Below, piece by piece: positions 8,425-64,000 of a stretch of 64,000 bases of DNA. The position numbers and the translations under genes were made by a program. The DNA is taken from positions 3,596,001 to 3,660,000 of the forward strand of contig NZ_JACIFP010000001.1 of NCBI RefSeq assembly GCF_014197435.1. Reading direction: 5' to 3'. This DNA is from Gordonia humi. Its GTDB lineage: Bacteria; Actinomycetota; Actinomycetes; Mycobacteriales; Mycobacteriaceae. Positions within the stretch are counted from its first letter, which is position 1; each line of letters begins with the position of its first letter. The notes beneath the pieces were generated by a model. That model had not been told where the DNA came from and made no database searches. It saw only the letters and a list, made by a program, of their open reading frames with translations.

Positions 8425-8447
8425 AGAGTACGCGGACCCTCCGACAA
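8425..8447 (-). promoter_or_regulatory. DNA-damage (PafBC/RecA-NDp type) promoter of uvrA
   Basis: On the minus strand TTGTCGGAG (8439-8447), exactly 8 bases, then TACTCT (8425-8430). The mycobacterial LexA-independent damage promoter is TTGTCRGTG-N8-TANNNT, so this matches 8 of 9 bases plus the spacing and -10. It lies about 40 bases before the uvrA start. Confidence 0.75.
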
Positions 8448-8510
8448 TTCTCGGCGAGCGTCGCCCCGGAGCCGCCCCGCAGTGTCGGACCCGACAGCTA
8501 ACGTAGGGGT

Positions 8511-9209
8511 ATGACGCAGCAGATCACAGTCTCCGACGAGTACACCGGCAACGTCTCCCCCGACGGCGACGACCAGCAGAACAAGGCGCAGCGCCGCGAT
8601 CTCGACAACGCCACGGTCGTGAAGCTGTCCGTCGGTCCGATGGACAACAACGTCTACGTCGTCACCGACAAGGCCACTGGCGACGCGCTGCTGATCGACG
8701 CCGCGAACGATGCGGGGGTGCTGCTGGACCTCGCCGAACAGATCCCCGGCACCGTCAAACAGATCGTCACGACCCACGGCCACTTCGACCACTGGCAGGC
8801 GCTCGACGAGGTGAGCACCGGACTCGCCGTCCCCCACGCCGTGGGGACCGCCGATGCGGGCGACCTCCCGGTGACCGCCGACCGGCTCCTGTCCGACGGC
8901 GACACCGTGGTCGTCGGCGAGCTGACGCTCGACGTGATCGGCATCGTCGGCCACACGCTCGGCTCCGTGGCCCTGGCCCTCACCGAGCAGTCCGGTCGCG
9001 TCCACCTCTTCACCGGCGACACCCTTTTTCCCGGCGGTGTCGGAAAGACCTGGCAGCCGGGCGACTTCGAAATCCTCCTCGGCGACGTCGAGACCAAGTT
9101 CTTCGGCCGCTACGGCGACGACACCGTGGTCTACCCGGGCCACGGCAAGGACACGACGCTGGGCGCCGAGCGCCCCGGTCTGCCGGAGTGGCGCGCCCGC
9201 GGCTGGTGA
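8511..9209 (+). CDS. Metallo-beta-lactamase-fold hydrolase
   Basis: A 232-residue MBL-fold protein with the metal-binding THGHFDHW motif near residues 87-94, the distal GHTLGS and FTGDTLFPGG motifs and the C-terminal PGHGKDTT, which together give a complete binuclear Zn/Fe site of the glyoxalase II/hydroxyacylglutathione hydrolase-like group. In position it matches M. tuberculosis Rv1637c, divergent from uvrA. Substrate unknown. A TAACGT -10 (8499-8504) ends 6 bases before the ATG, suggesting a leaderless transcript. The bases 8 nt further upstream (8482-8490, GTGTCGGAC) only weakly resemble the damage promoter element. The first ~30 residues are polar and probably disordered. Confidence 0.88.
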   Translation: MTQQITVSDEYTGNVSPDGDDQQNKAQRRDLDNATVVKLSVGPMDNNVYVVTDKATGDALLIDAANDAGVLLDLAEQIPGTVKQIVTTHGHFDHWQALDEVSTGLAVPHAVGTADAGDLPVTADRLLSDGDTVVVGELTLDVIGIVGHTLGSVALALTEQSGRVHLFTGDTLFPGGVGKTWQPGDFEILLGDVETKFFGRYGDDTVVYPGHGKDTTLGAERPGLPEWRARGW

Positions 9210-15390: not shown

Positions 15391-15413
15391 AGGGTAGAAC
15401 GTGCCACCGACAA
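15391..15413 (-). promoter_or_regulatory. DNA-damage (PafBC/RecA-NDp type) promoter of uvrB
   Basis: Minus strand TTGTCGGTG (15405-15413), exactly 8 bases, TACCCT (15391-15396), then 6 bases to the uvrB ATG (15384). This is a perfect match to TTGTCRGTG-N8-TANNNT, with the transcript start expected at the initiation codon. Confidence 0.88.
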
Positions 15414-47565: not shown

Positions 47566-47588
47566 AGTCTAGTGATGGGCTCCGACAG
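47566..47588 (-). promoter_or_regulatory. Probable DNA-damage (PafBC type) promoter of polA
   Basis: Minus strand CTGTCGGAG (47580-47588), exactly 8 bases, TAGACT (47566-47571), 7 bases, GTG start of polA. It matches TTGTCRGTG-N8-TANNNT at 7 of 9 upstream bases and shares TGTCGGAG with the uvrA and SWIM-operon sites. Confidence 0.6.
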
Positions 47589-59485: not shown

Positions 59486-59508
59486 ATGTCGGAGGCCACG
59501 TCTATTGT
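59486..59508 (+). promoter_or_regulatory. Probable DNA-damage (PafBC type) promoter of the SWIM-MoxR operon
   Basis: ATGTCGGAG (59486-59494), exactly 8 bases, TATTGT (59503-59508), then 7 bases to the ATG at 59516. It has the same architecture as uvrB and polA: 7 of 9 upstream matches, correct spacing, TANNNT and a leaderless start. Confidence 0.55.
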
Positions 59509-59515
59509 CCGTTGT

Positions 59516-60796
59516 ATGCCGTGGACGCGAGAGCAGGTGCTGGCCGTTGCGCCGGACGAGTCGTCGGTCAAAGCCGGTCAGAAGCTGGCGACCCCGGGGC
59601 CGTGGTCGGCGACCGGACACACCGAAGCACTGCTGTGGGGCTCATGCCAAGGGAGTGGCAAGAAGCCGTACCAGGTGAGCATCGATCTCACCGGACCCGC
59701 GTACAAGTGCTCGTGCCCGAGCCGAAAGTTCCCGTGCAAACACGCGATCGCACTCCTGCTGCTGTGGTCGACGGGAGCGATCGGCGACGGCGAGGTCGCC
59801 GGGTTCGCGGCCGAATGGGCCGATGATCGCGCATCACGGACCGAACGTGCCGCGACGACGGCCGCATCGGCCGATCCCGCGGCGGCGCAGGCTCGCAGGG
59901 CCGAGCGGATCGCGAAGATGGATGCGGGCGTCGCCGACTTCGCCCAATGGCTCACCGATCTGGCGCGCGCCGGTCTGGCCGACGCCCTGCGCCGTGCCCC
60001 CGACTGGTGGGAGTCGACGGCCGCGCGGCTGGTCGACGCACAACTACCCGGACTCGCCGAACGCGTACGGGACGCCGGCGGCGAGGTGGCCCAGGGGCTC
60101 GAGGCCTCCGATCTCCTCGAACGGGTCGGGGTGTGGTGGCTGCTGGTCCAGGCGTGGCGCCGACGCGAGACGCTCGACGCCGCGCGGACCGCCGATCTCG
60201 ACGCCGCCGTCGGTCTGCCGACCGCGGCCGCCGACGTGCGGGCGGGTGAGACCAGAACGCAGAACTGGACCGTACTCGGCGCACACCGCGACCTGCGCGG
60301 ACGCCTCGAACAGCAGCGCACCTGGCTGCGCGGCGATGACGGAACCGTCATCGTGCTGCTCGACACCGCGGGTCCCGGGCAGAGCCTCGGCGTCCCGCAG
60401 CTCACCGGATCACGGGTCCACGCCGAGGTCGCACTCTATCCGGGGACCGCGCCGCGGCGAGCGTTGTTCGCCACGCCGCCGGAGCCGGTGGGAACCAGCG
60501 ACCGGTTCGGTCCCGGCGGCACCGTCGACGATGCCCTCGCCGAGGCCGCCGCGGCTCTCGCCGCGGTCCCCTGGCGGGACCGTCACCCGGTCACCGTGAA
60601 CGACGTCGCCGTGGCCGACGACGCCGAGCATCTCCTCGACGCGGGCGGCGGCGCCCTCCGCCTCACCGACGACACGCCGACTCCACTTCTGCTGGCGGCC
60701 ACCGGCGGTCGCGCCGCGCAGGTGTTCGGCGAACTCGACGCCGGCCGACTCCGCGTTCTCGCGGTGGCCGCCGACGGCGAGGTGACGGCCCTGTGA
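59516..60796 (+). CDS. SWIM zinc-finger protein, first gene of SWIM-DUF5691-MoxR-DUF5682 operon
   Basis: 426 residues from the ATG at 59516; longer in-frame starts overlap the promoter. The SWIM finger is complete: C65-x-C67...C74-x-H76 in YKCSCPSRKFPCKHAIALLL, preceded by a small strand-rich segment (ALLWGSCQGSGKKPYQVSID). From ~150 there is an Ala/Arg-rich, likely helical region, and the last ~130 residues form an uncharacterised domain (WTVLGAHRDLRGRLEQQRTW, and so on). SWIM fingers bind nucleic acid or protein; here it may target the MoxR machine. Its stop overlaps the next start by 4 bases (GTGA). No ribosome site; a damage-type promoter is 7 bases upstream. Confidence 0.83.
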   Translation: MPWTREQVLAVAPDESSVKAGQKLATPGPWSATGHTEALLWGSCQGSGKKPYQVSIDLTGPAYKCSCPSRKFPCKHAIALLLLWSTGAIGDGEVAGFAAEWADDRASRTERAATTAASADPAAAQARRAERIAKMDAGVADFAQWLTDLARAGLADALRRAPDWWESTAARLVDAQLPGLAERVRDAGGEVAQGLEASDLLERVGVWWLLVQAWRRRETLDAARTADLDAAVGLPTAAADVRAGETRTQNWTVLGAHRDLRGRLEQQRTWLRGDDGTVIVLLDTAGPGQSLGVPQLTGSRVHAEVALYPGTAPRRALFATPPEPVGTSDRFGPGGTVDDALAEAAAALAAVPWRDRHPVTVNDVAVADDAEHLLDAGGGALRLTDDTPTPLLLAATGGRAAQVFGELDAGRLRVLAVAADGEVTAL

Positions 60797-62238
60797 CCGC
60801 CGCCGAGGACACCGCGACCTGGTTCACTGACCTGTTGTCCGCCGCCGTACTCGGCACCGATCGCCGCCCGGCACCCGCTCGGCCCGATGTCATCGGGCCG
60901 ACGGCCGACGACGACCCCGCCGAAGACCTGCTGCAACAGGCCGCCCTGGCCGCGGCGCTCGTGCGCGGCGGTCGGACCGCCGGAGCGGCGACACCGATGG
61001 CCGCGGCCCCTCCGGAGACGTCACCGGTGGCGCCTGCGCGCGCCGTGCAGATTCTGCGGATGCTGCTCGAGACGCCGCCGTCGCCGCGGGAAGCACGGTC
61101 CACGCTGATCGTCAGGTGGCTCGACGCCGCGTCCGCGCGGGGCATGCGTGTCCCGCCGACGCTGCTGCCCACGCTCATCGCGGACTCGAGCGACGAGGTG
61201 ACCGCCGCCCTGCGCTCGGCGTGGGGTGCTCGCGGGGCGTGGTTGGCCGAACCCGACGGAGCCTCGGGCACCCCCGACGCGACGTCCCGGACGTCGCGGG
61301 CAGACCTGGAGAAGCAGTGGTCGACGATGCCGGCCCGCGCCAAGCAGGAGGCACTCGAAGCGTTGGGCGTCGGCCTCTCGATGGACGACGAGCCCCTCCT
61401 CGAACGCTGCCTCGACGAGCGGTCGGCCCGCGTCCGCGACGCGGCGCGCCTGCTGCTGTCCGAACTGACCTCGAGCCGGTACTCGGCACGAATGGCTGAT
61501 CGTCTGCGACCGCTGGTCACTCGCCGGACTCCGAGCGTGGCCCGACGACTCACCGCGCTCGTCTCCGACGCTCCGGTCCTGGTCGACGTGCACCCGCCGA
61601 CGGCCCTCGACGCCGCCGCCGACCGCGACGGGCTGCCCGCCCTCCACAGCGACGCCGATCGGACGAAGGCGCTACGCGCGATCGTCGTCGCGGCGCCGCT
61701 GGACACGTGGACGCGACTGCTCGATGCGACACCCGAACGGATCGTCGCCGGGTTGTCCTCCGATGCGACGGTGATCGACGCGATGGCCCGCGCCGCGATC
61801 CGGCAGCATGATTCCGCATGGGCCGCGGCGCTCGCGCGATACTCGTCGTCGCCCGGTCTGACCGAGACGATGACACCCGCCGATCGTGAGCGCGAACTGC
61901 TGCAACGGCTGCGGTCCGAACCGGACAGGCAGGTACCGCAGGTGCTGTCCCGACTGGACGCTCCGTGGTCGGAGACGATCGCCGACGCCGTCCTCGATCG
62001 ACTCGCCGCACCGCCCGTCGTACAGAAGGGGCACGCGCAGGGCGTGACCCTGCCGACCGCGTATGCCGTCGCGTTCCCCGCCGCGGCCCTGCCCCGCATC
62101 CAGTACATCCTCGACCAGCCTGTTCCCGACGCGGACGCGACGGGTGCCCATTCGATCATCGGCAGCCGCCGTGCACTGCTGCAGGCGGCCACCACCTTCC
62201 ACGCATTCGACCGTTCCATCCAGGAGGCTTTCGCATGA
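60793..62238 (+). CDS. DUF5691-family protein (HEAT-like, MoxR operon)
   Basis: 481 residues starting at the GTG that overlaps the SWIM stop. I recognise the family mainly by its place in SWIM/MoxR operons: an N-terminal WFTDLLSAAVLGTDRRPAP, then helical, Ala/Leu/Arg-rich repeats resembling HEAT units (LERCLDERSARVRDAARLLL; LRPLVTRRTPSVARRLTALV). The C-terminus has HSIIGSRRALLQAATTFHAF. There are no catalytic motifs, signal or membrane helix. A scaffold or adaptor between the SWIM protein and the ATPase is a reasonable guess only. The stop overlaps the MoxR ATG by 4 bases. Confidence 0.7.
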   Translation: MTAAEDTATWFTDLLSAAVLGTDRRPAPARPDVIGPTADDDPAEDLLQQAALAAALVRGGRTAGAATPMAAAPPETSPVAPARAVQILRMLLETPPSPREARSTLIVRWLDAASARGMRVPPTLLPTLIADSSDEVTAALRSAWGARGAWLAEPDGASGTPDATSRTSRADLEKQWSTMPARAKQEALEALGVGLSMDDEPLLERCLDERSARVRDAARLLLSELTSSRYSARMADRLRPLVTRRTPSVARRLTALVSDAPVLVDVHPPTALDAAADRDGLPALHSDADRTKALRAIVVAAPLDTWTRLLDATPERIVAGLSSDATVIDAMARAAIRQHDSAWAAALARYSSSPGLTETMTPADRERELLQRLRSEPDRQVPQVLSRLDAPWSETIADAVLDRLAAPPVVQKGHAQGVTLPTAYAVAFPAAALPRIQYILDQPVPDADATGAHSIIGSRRALLQAATTFHAFDRSIQEAFA

Positions 62239-63374
62239 CCGATACAGATCTCGATGCCGCTCGATCAGCGGAAACCGTCGACGATGTCGTCCGGGCGCAC
62301 GCCGAACAGGCCTTCGCCGATGAACTCGCCGCGCTCGCCGCAGCCGACGACCGCCCCCGTCCGCCGCAGTGGAAGCTGTCGCCGTGGGCGGTGTCGACCT
62401 ATCTGCTCGGCGGAACACTCGCCGACGGCACCGAGATCAGCCCGAAGTACATCGGCAGCCGCCGACTCATCGAGATCGCCGTCGCCTCGTTGGCCACCGA
62501 TCGCGCGCTGCTTCTCCTCGGCGTGCCCGGCACCGCCAAATCGTGGGTCAGCGAACACCTGGCGGCCGCGGTCAGCGGCGACTCGACACTCGTGGTCCAG
62601 GGCACGGCCGGCACCGGCGAGGAGACCATCCGCTACGGCTGGAACTACGCGAGCCTCCTCGCACACGGTCCCTCGCGCGACGCCCTCGTTCCCGGCCCGG
62701 TGATGCGCGCGATGGACACCGGCGCCATCGCCCGCATCGAAGAACTCACCCGGATCCCCGCGGACGTGCAGGACTCGCTCATCACGATCCTGTCGGAGAA
62801 GACGCTCCCGGTCCCCGAACTCGACTCGGAGGTCCAGGCACGGCGCGGCTTCAACGTGATCGCCACCGCCAACAACCGCGACAAGGGCGTCAACGATCTC
62901 TCGTCGGCGCTGCGACGCCGCTTCACCACCGTCGTGCTTCCGCTGCCGGACTCACTCGACGACGAGGTCGACATCGTCACGCGACGTGTCAGCAGTCTCG
63001 GCGCATCCCTCGACCTGCCCGCCGAGCTCGAGTCGCTGAGCGAGATCCGGCGCGTCGTCACGGTGATGCGCGAACTGCGCGGCGGCGTCACCGCCGACGG
63101 ACGCACCACCATCAAGTCGCCGAGCTCCACCCTGTCGACGGCCGAGGCGATCTCCGTCGTGACGAGCGGTCTGAGCCTGGCCGCGCACTTCGGCGACGGA
63201 GTGGTCGGCGCCGACGACGTCGCGGCGGGCCTTCTCGGCGCGGTGGTCAAGGATCCGGTGGGCGACGCCGTCGTCTGGGACGAGTATCTGGAGACCGTGG
63301 TCCGCGGTCGCGACGGCTGGGACGATCTGTATCGGGCCTGCCGCGACCTGGGGCCGGCCTCGGAGAAGGCGTGA
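62235..63374 (+). CDS. MoxR-type AAA+ ATPase
   Basis: 379 residues from the ATG at 62235 (AGGAGG 9 bases upstream). AAA+ motifs: Walker A GVPGTAKS at 96-103, a Walker-B-like region (GAIARIEELTRIPADVQDSL), sensor 1 ATANNRDKG and arginine finger region LSSALRRRF. MoxR ATPases act as chaperones that remodel protein partners, usually with a von Willebrand A (MIDAS) protein. The N-terminal ~85 residues (WKLSPWAVSTYLLGG) are specific to this SWIM/DUF5682 branch. Both neighbours overlap by 4 bases, so the four genes are one translationally coupled operon. Confidence 0.9.
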   Translation: MTDTDLDAARSAETVDDVVRAHAEQAFADELAALAAADDRPRPPQWKLSPWAVSTYLLGGTLADGTEISPKYIGSRRLIEIAVASLATDRALLLLGVPGTAKSWVSEHLAAAVSGDSTLVVQGTAGTGEETIRYGWNYASLLAHGPSRDALVPGPVMRAMDTGAIARIEELTRIPADVQDSLITILSEKTLPVPELDSEVQARRGFNVIATANNRDKGVNDLSSALRRRFTTVVLPLPDSLDDEVDIVTRRVSSLGASLDLPAELESLSEIRRVVTVMRELRGGVTADGRTTIKSPSSTLSTAEAISVVTSGLSLAAHFGDGVVGADDVAAGLLGAVVKDPVGDAVVWDEYLETVVRGRDGWDDLYRACRDLGPASEKA

Positions 63375-64000
63375 GCGGACAGTCCACGCCCGGGCTGCAC
63401 GTCCTCGGCATCCGACACCACGGACCCGGCTCGGCGCGGTCGGTCGCGGCCGCGCTCGACGAGTTGGCCCCGGATCTGGTCTTGGTCGAGGGCCCGCCCG
63501 AGCTGACCGCGATCCTGCCGTTCCTCGCCGACGAGGCGACGGCTCCTCCCGTGGCGGGCTTGGCGTACGACGTCGACGAGCCGCGGCGCGCGTCGTTCTA
63601 CCCGCTCGCGGTGTTCTCCCCCGAATGGGTCGCGACGCGCTGGGCGCTGAGCCGCACCGTCGACGTCGCCTGGATCGACCTGCCCGCGGCCTCGACGGCG
63701 GCGATCCGAGCGGCCGTCTCGGACACCGGAGAGTTCACGGAGCCCTCCGACGAGACCGTCACCGATCCGATCGGCGCCCTCGCGGCCGCTGCCGGCTACG
63801 ACGATCCCGAACGCTGGTGGGAGGACGCCGTCGAACACCGATCGGGCACCGCCGTCGAACGGTTCGCCGACATCACCGAGGCGATCGCCGAACTCCGTCG
63901 AGACGAGCCGACGCCCACACCGCTGGTCGACGACGACAAGGTCCTCGACGTGCGGGCCGCGGCGGCGCCGACCGGTGCCGCGATGACCGCGGTCCGCGAG
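63371..64000 (+). CDS. DUF5682-family protein, 3' end outside window
   Basis: Starts at the GTG overlapping the MoxR stop (GTGA) and is open to the window end, giving 210 codons seen. The start LHVLGIRHHGPGSARSVAAA, followed by LDELAPDLVLVEGPPELTAI, is characteristic of DUF5682, large proteins always near MoxR genes. The H-H-G-P-G and V-E-G-P-P motifs recall the start of TraB/ChaN-like folds, so a metal or haem-binding hydrolase fold is possible but unproved. A VWA-domain gene is expected next, beyond the window. Confidence 0.72.
   Translation, partial: MSGQSTPGLHVLGIRHHGPGSARSVAAALDELAPDLVLVEGPPELTAILPFLADEATAPPVAGLAYDVDEPRRASFYPLAVFSPEWVATRWALSRTVDVAWIDLPAASTAAIRAAVSDTGEFTEPSDETVTDPIGALAAAAGYDDPERWWEDAVEHRSGTAVERFADITEAIAELRRDEPTPTPLVDDDKVLDVRAAAAPTGAAMTAVRE

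Follow-up and report, generated by a model that had tools for sequence, protein, structure and literature searches.

We examined a 64,000-nucleotide (nt) stretch of the Gordonia humi genome, here called the window (C1:3596001-3660000 of the 5.09 Mb genome), the end of which carries an operon for a SWIM zinc-finger protein, a DUF5691 protein, a MoxR AAA+ ATPase and a DUF5682 protein. The sequence-only reading of this DNA had described a four-gene operon, with 4-base overlaps between the genes, that appeared to be DNA-damage inducible. The four gene calls and the overlaps were confirmed, each junction within the window being a 4-base ATGA or GTGA overlap, but the window cuts the operon. The DUF5682 gene ends at genome C1:3661665, and a fifth gene, encoding a VWA_CoxE protein, follows with another overlap of 4 bases (Table 1).

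Table 1. The predicted promoter and the genes of the operon (window positions, unless a genome position is given).
Feature	Position	Strand	Details
PafBC/RecA-NDp-type promoter (predicted)	59487..59508	+	TGTCGGAG-N8-TATTGT; -26 element 59487-59494, -10 element 59503-59508
SWIM zinc-finger protein, 426 aa	59516..60796	+	Pfam SWIM E 3.5e-7
DUF5691 protein, 481 aa	60793..62238	+	Pfam E 4.7e-72
MoxR AAA+ ATPase, YehL type, 379 aa	62235..63374	+	AAA_5 E 2.2e-38
DUF5682 protein, first 210 of 764 aa	63371..64000	+	Pfam E 6.7e-48 (part), 5.1e-230 (whole)
VWA_CoxE protein, 387 aa	genome C1:3661662-3662825, outside window		VWA_CoxE E 9.9e-51

The putative metal ligands of the SWIM protein (C65, C67, C74 and H76) were invariant in 24 aligned sequences (alignment A1), and its closest named relative among the matches listed was that of Gordonia zhenghanii (70% identity). 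The best 80 named loci, of at least 556 confirmed relatives, fell in eight phyla as judged by record titles. We observed that SWIM-DUF5691-MoxR-DUF5682-VWA lay on one strand in 50 of these 80, 12 of them outside Actinomycetota. The remaining loci were 11 split Streptomyces loci and 19 with fewer genes, some because the contig or stretch ends. In five named loci (four Nocardia, one Paractinoplanes) the SWIM and DUF5691 proteins were fused, which suggests that the two work together. A HEAT_2 match was seen in 10 of 53 DUF5691 rows, and in a model of the Paractinoplanes fusion (predicted local distance difference test, pLDDT, 87.4; predicted template modelling score, pTM, 0.57) the DUF5691 part was all helical and HEAT-like. 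The MoxR protein has kept the Walker A motif, the sensor-1 Asn and the RRRF motif, with EE in the Walker B region as in YehL, and the VWA protein has kept the MIDAS motif DxSxS. For DUF5682 we used a model of the G. zhenghanii protein, which is 78% identical (mean pLDDT 88.5, pTM 0.84); it is alpha/beta in its N-terminal part and helical in its C-terminal part. In the numbering of that protein, R21, R225, E226, R230, G249 and H252 were invariant in 37 members, H22 and E46 were present in 36 and H23 in 35.

The 22-mer before the SWIM gene reads ATGTCGGAG-N8-TATTGT in the window sequence. The published LexA/RecA-independent promoter is tTGTCRgtg-8nt-TannnT (PMC5656591), and all its upper-case letters are present here; the two mismatches to tTGTCRgtg fall on lower-case letters, with A in place of the first t and again at the last base but one of the -26 element. 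As in the PafBC regulon, the -26 TGTCR core is followed by a -10 TAnnnT 8 nt past the TGTCRgtg element. The ATG of the SWIM gene lies 7 nt past the -10 element, a gap that fits a predicted leaderless start of the SWIM mRNA.

The sequence-only reading had seen this form, TGTCGGAG-N8-TATTGT with a leaderless-type ATG, before uvrA, uvrB and polA as well, and like units were indeed located on the minus strand at 8425-8446 (uvrA), 15391-15412 (uvrB) and 47566-47587 (polA). The element TGTCGGAG at -26 is exactly common to the SWIM, uvrA and polA promoters, and uvrB has TGTCGGTG. The pattern TGTCGGAG-N8-TANNNT gave three exact matches in the window, as compared with a mean of 0.00 over 100 shuffles. 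A second PafBC-like promoter, TGTCGGACCCGACAGCTAACGT at 8483-8504 on the plus strand, stands head to head with the uvrA promoter; the gene that begins 6 nt past it (8511-9209, plus strand) encodes a 232-aa protein that by eye has the look of a metallo-beta-lactamase-fold hydrolase.

Across the genome, TGTCRGNG-N8-TANNNT gave 25 matches, as compared with 1 for the reversed pattern. The looser TGTCVG-N10-TANNNT gave 46 and its reversed control 18, so the looser pattern holds many chance matches. We listed the downstream open reading frames (ORFs) at 38 loci (25 strict and 13 looser matches) and scanned 20 of them with Pfam (14 strict, 6 looser). Ten of the 25 strict matches were upstream of repair, replication, nuclease or helicase genes, namely those for RecA, UvrA, UvrB, 5'-3' exonuclease/PolI, NAD-dependent ligase, a DnaX-type protein, an RNase_T-type exonuclease, Exo_endo_phos and Metallophos proteins and a helicase. 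Other strict matches stood before a DUF222 protein, a Fic protein, a thioesterase and one protein without a Pfam match, and some (e.g. L001, L007 and L014) had no clear downstream gene. Like the SWIM gene, six others, among them uvrB, polA, dnaX and ligA, start 6-7 nt past the -10 element; for uvrA, recA and others the start codon is further away. Besides recA and ligA, which stand behind the motif, ssb is preceded by a looser form of it.

Among the other genes behind PafBC-like motifs in this genome were DUF222 (13E12-type) genes, at L003 and L185 by Pfam and at L004 and L022 by likeness. Three of the DUF222 loci have a near-identical spacer and -10 region, possibly reflecting a family that moves with its own promoter. 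A Fic/DOC protein gene and an SNF2-type helicase gene were likewise seen at L008 and L191.

The genome encodes both PafB and PafC. Two adjacent WYL genes, identified by domain search, lie 3' of a pafA-like gene, and the gene order, named by eye as was pafA, is prcA-pafA-pafB-pafC-tat. A PafB match was obtained in 19 of the 20 genomes tested, with G357 (genus g6) alone lacking one. It has been reported that PafBC, activated by single-stranded DNA, reprograms the sigma-A RNA polymerase at such promoters (PMC11804915). A word search of the main texts of the PafBC and WYL papers examined found no mention of SWIM.

We evaluated the motif before orthologous SWIM genes, a test that the sequence-only reading had named. 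The SWIM protein was searched in 397 genomes of the order, and all 47 loci with a match were retrieved. The family search (401 genomes) gave 118 matches at E <= 1e-40, of which one (G478, near a contig end) was left out, and the class search with alignment A1 (394 genomes) gave 92 at E <= 1e-20, of which the best 30 loci were used. These best 30 and the 80 named loci are biased to close relatives. The Mycobacteriales rows were reduced from 152 to 143 by dropping L051, which duplicates L077, L070-L076, whose matches were broken, partial or unaligned at the N-terminus, and L085, which lies at a contig edge. All four g68 genomes were among the dropped rows; L282 was dropped from the class set because its genome was already used. 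The sets are not independent: several upstream sequences recur, in one set or in two (e.g. L080 and L197), and Mycobacteriales species are also present among the 81 further actinobacterial rows. At each locus the 150 nt upstream were scored, with a matrix trained on 12 own-genome promoters, the SWIM promoter being left out.

A score of at least 9 was reached in 118 of the 143 Mycobacteriales upstreams (antisense 1; shuffles 1.9%), in 63 of the 81 further actinobacterial upstreams (antisense 28; shuffles 1.5%) and in 1 of the 25 upstreams outside Actinomycetota (antisense 1; shuffles 2.4%). TGTCVG-N10-TANNNT was present in 57 of the 143, with an antisense count of 0 and a mean of 0.08 per 143 in 50 shuffles. 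Only the N10 spacing was enriched here, as every other spacing from N4 to N16 counted 0, except for 1 at N16. The same pattern occurred in 48 of the 81 (antisense 0; 35 with the exact TGTCRGTG form), and in both strands of these 81 loci (1.07 Mb) it had 65 matches, 48 of which were within 400 nt before the SWIM gene. It was found in none of the 25 non-actinobacterial and neither of the two acidimicrobial upstreams. At the level of genera, 17 of 23 in Mycobacteriales had at least one member scoring 8 or more. The proposed enrichment was thus far above shuffles, antisense strands and non-actinobacterial orthologues.

Some loci showed further features. In genus g10 (L138, L145, L152 and L156) an inverted GAACATGCGTTC that resembles an actinobacterial SOS box is present in addition to the PafBC motif, some 89 nt upstream of the SWIM gene. 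PafBC-type motifs also precede polA-like and mfd-like genes (by eye) near the SWIM operon in L211 (Nocardioides) and L198 (Microbacterium). Genus g1, with 14 genomes that have the SWIM gene, contains two SWIM versions, 64-70% and 39-44% identical to that of the window, which suggests replacement or horizontal transfer. Between L219 (titled Kitasatospora arboriphila) and L226 (Williamsia muralis) the upstreams agree at 384 of 412 positions, and mislabelling or contamination of the record titled Kitasatospora, or transfer of the region, may explain this.

The 28 antisense matches in the further actinobacterial set point to a second promoter. The module is split in each of the 11 named Streptomyces loci, with SWIM-DUF5691 divergent from MoxR-DUF5682-VWA, although three of these loci showed no DUF5691. 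The MoxR half is preceded by a matrix match in every one of the 11. We evaluated TGTCAGTG-N8-YANNNT in a 33-locus set, consisting of the 11 named Streptomyces loci and 22 of genus g122, which was taken as Streptomyces. Within 400 nt the pattern was present on the SWIM side in 33 of 33 and on the MoxR side in 31 of 33, and no antisense match was seen in 51 other loci. Paractinoplanes also has the motif before MoxR. In one single-contig g122 genome, TTGTCAGTG-N8-YANNNT gave 31 matches, as compared with 0 in the control, and both module halves stand behind the motif. Ten of 30 downstream ORFs in that genome were scanned and yielded UDG, IMS (dinB-type), UvrA, UvrB, RecA, ligase, Lhr-type and other helicase domains and MoxR; the tenth was the SWIM protein, which had no Pfam match at 1e-5. 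RecA-NDp promoters have already been described in Streptomyces (PMC5087735). The M. smegmatis motif was reported as seemingly not conserved in S. venezuelae (PMC9380542); the g122 and Streptomyces data argue against this for the genus in general, S. venezuelae itself being outside the data set. Nine of the Streptomyces loci (L233, L243, L250, L251, L259, L263, L267, L270 and L273) also carry a conserved TGTCAGTG-N8-TAGACT on the minus strand, about 9-10 kb downstream of the SWIM start. This precedes a UvrD/PcrA-like helicase gene (by eye; three were translated).

The motif enrichment, the single spacing, the promoters of both Streptomyces transcripts and the presence of pafA-pafB-pafC in the genome support the predicted LexA-independent, damage-type control. 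PafBC-type control of the operon is, as a prediction from sequence, strongly supported. As far as regulation is concerned, it is very probable that PafBC activates this operon, with its YehL-type MoxR-VWA module, in a LexA-independent response to DNA damage. Single-stranded DNA would activate PafBC once damage has occurred, PafBC would then reprogram the sigma-A RNA polymerase at 59487-59508, and a leaderless mRNA would begin at or near 59516; we infer that the operon is induced by damage. As the most likely biochemistry we tentatively suggest, at somewhat less than even chances, that a complex is remodelled or activated at the expense of ATP by the MoxR ring together with its VWA partner. In this complex SWIM zinc finger and HEAT-like DUF5691 would form the nucleic-acid/protein adaptor, and the working subunit would be DUF5682, which may consist of a TraB/TIKI-like hydrolase domain and an alpha-solenoid. 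A bolder and rather doubtful suggestion is that this actinobacterial damage-inducible AAA+ machine, with E. coli yehLMPQ as its relative, might be an unrecognised arm of the LexA-independent response, in which proteins at damaged DNA are remodelled with ATP and hydrolysed.

Several observations weigh against the main reading. The matrix score was below 9 in 25 of the 143 Mycobacteriales and 18 of the 81 further actinobacterial upstreams, and the strict TGTCRGNG-N8-TANNNT was present in just 16 of the 143. Six of the 23 Mycobacteriales genera (g5, g6, g18, g30, g56 and g58) had no member at 8 or above. Since PafB was found in members of five of these six, either the promoter loss there is real or the control differs, and PafBC control is therefore not universal. 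The lone non-actinobacterial upstream at 9 or above, from Chloroflexaceae, scored 12.4, and one of the two acidimicrobial upstreams scored 13.2. Five LexA-type patterns gave a single half-site match (AGTACT, Scytolyngbya) before the 25 non-actinobacterial SWIM genes and none before E. coli yehL. With such patterns nearly absent outside Actinomycetota, a damage link is seen only within that phylum, and repair may not be the basic role of the module. As for the hydrolase domain, a Pfam TraB match was obtained in 1 of 37 DUF5682 members (E 0.038), and a DUF5682-TraB profile comparison was not above column shuffles (hhalign 17.4, as compared with a shuffled 95% point of 19.1).

Among other explanations, a maturation chaperone fares best, though it is less likely than not. 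Here MoxR-VWA would insert metal into DUF5682 or remodel it, as NorQD does for nitric oxide reductase, and the promoter would respond to oxidative stress, not to DNA damage itself. Maturation of metalloenzymes is on record for MoxR proteins and MoxR-VWA pairs (PMC9976466, PMC3893208), the invariant or near-invariant His, Glu and Arg residues of DUF5682 (H22, H23, E46, R225, R230 and H252) are consistent with this, and the PafBC regulon includes oxidative-stress genes (PMC8223512). However, the NorQD literature examined (PMC9976466) makes no mention of partners of the SWIM or HEAT-like kind. Less likely again is a defence or cell-fate (biological conflict) system under damage control, with MoxR-VWA setting the threshold at which an effector is switched on. 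Predicted conflict systems are built around MoxR-vWA couples (PMC7159879), the SWIM protein had a weak PADLOC match to PDC-S62 (E 7e-4), and occurrence is patchy (47 of 397 genomes of the order). Against this, the bpMoxR score of 23.7 bits was under the Pfam cut-off of 27, a criterion that defines the beta-propeller class only, and PADLOC gave no match for DUF5691, MoxR or the part of DUF5682 in the window (VWA and whole DUF5682 not scanned). Moreover, among 591 flanking ORFs no cluster extended over more than four genus-level names, and the core is kept in 50 of the 80 named loci.

Shu2/SWS1 are eukaryotic SWIM proteins, and the SWIM protein could act like them in a recombination-mediator-like module whose ATPase remodels RecA or SSB filaments. 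The invariant SWIM ligands and the promoter type common to recA, ligA and, in looser form, ssb agree with this, but no sequence or structural tie to Shu complexes turned up (no search was aimed at one) and the SWIM gene is missing from 350 of the 397 genomes of the order, so we regard it as improbable. An ordinary leaderless sigma-A promoter with PafBC-like upstream bases by chance is very improbable indeed: genus g58, which has a -10-like TAGGCT near the start without the -26 core, indicates that the gene can live with a plain promoter, but the enrichment at a single spacing, the near-zero antisense and shuffle controls, the near absence of the motif outside Actinomycetota and the separate motifs on both divergent Streptomyces transcripts all speak against it.

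The operon can be compared with several known systems. NorQ-NorD, CoxD-CoxE and RavA-ViaA likewise combine an AAA+ MoxR with a VWA protein having the MIDAS motif, and such pairs remodel client proteins, as NorQ/NorD does (PMC9976466); the operon differs from them by three further conserved partners. Its MoxR protein matches NorQ chains distantly (E 1e-6) and midasin better (E 4e-19). The MoxR-vWA core is also common to the ternary conflict systems, but no third component of VMAP, iSTAND or FtsH type was among the Pfam matches of the operon proteins, dedicated models not having been used. In DUF5682 the motif order G-x-x-H-x-G, hydrophobic-Glu, R-x-x-x-M-R, G-A-x-H resembles that of YbaP relatives in the TraB/TIKI/EreA-like group, from which it differs by a large added alpha-solenoid. 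The top match of its model in a viral library was a TraB protein (Foldseek probability 0.99, E 0.035), so DUF5682 is possibly TraB-like, which we treat as a lead only.

The operon is also related to E. coli yehLMPQ. YehL is 39% (E 3e-74), YehP (VWA) 35% and YehM (DUF5682) 26% identical to the MoxR, VWA and DUF5682 proteins of the operon. The YehL-related MoxR thus has the VWA and DUF5682 neighbours of a YehL-type module, and although the operon is uncharacterised, as the sequence-only reading had called it, it belongs with the MoxR subfamily that has been named YehL (PMC3893208). In one large genus sampled, 14 of 297 genomes had a match to the YehL-type MoxR. The E. coli cluster has a SWIM gene too (yehQ), whose product has the SWIM domain in common with the operon's protein and no detected similarity beyond it (blastp E 0.45). 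The four Yeh proteins gave no DUF5691 match, and the gene order differs from that of the operon.

The PafBC (RecA-NDp, P1) regulon of mycobacteria is alike in the capital letters of the promoter, the spacing, the predicted leaderless start and the presence of pafBC. Unlike the sequence-based prediction made here, that regulon comes from experiments in M. smegmatis and M. tuberculosis. The conserved AAA+ module is an addition to the predicted PafBC-type regulon, and extends it beyond the mycobacteria, in which it was mapped. The promoter type common with recA, uvrA, uvrB and ligA gives the SWIM module a strong functional clue, and the function of YehL-type MoxR proteins becomes directly testable.

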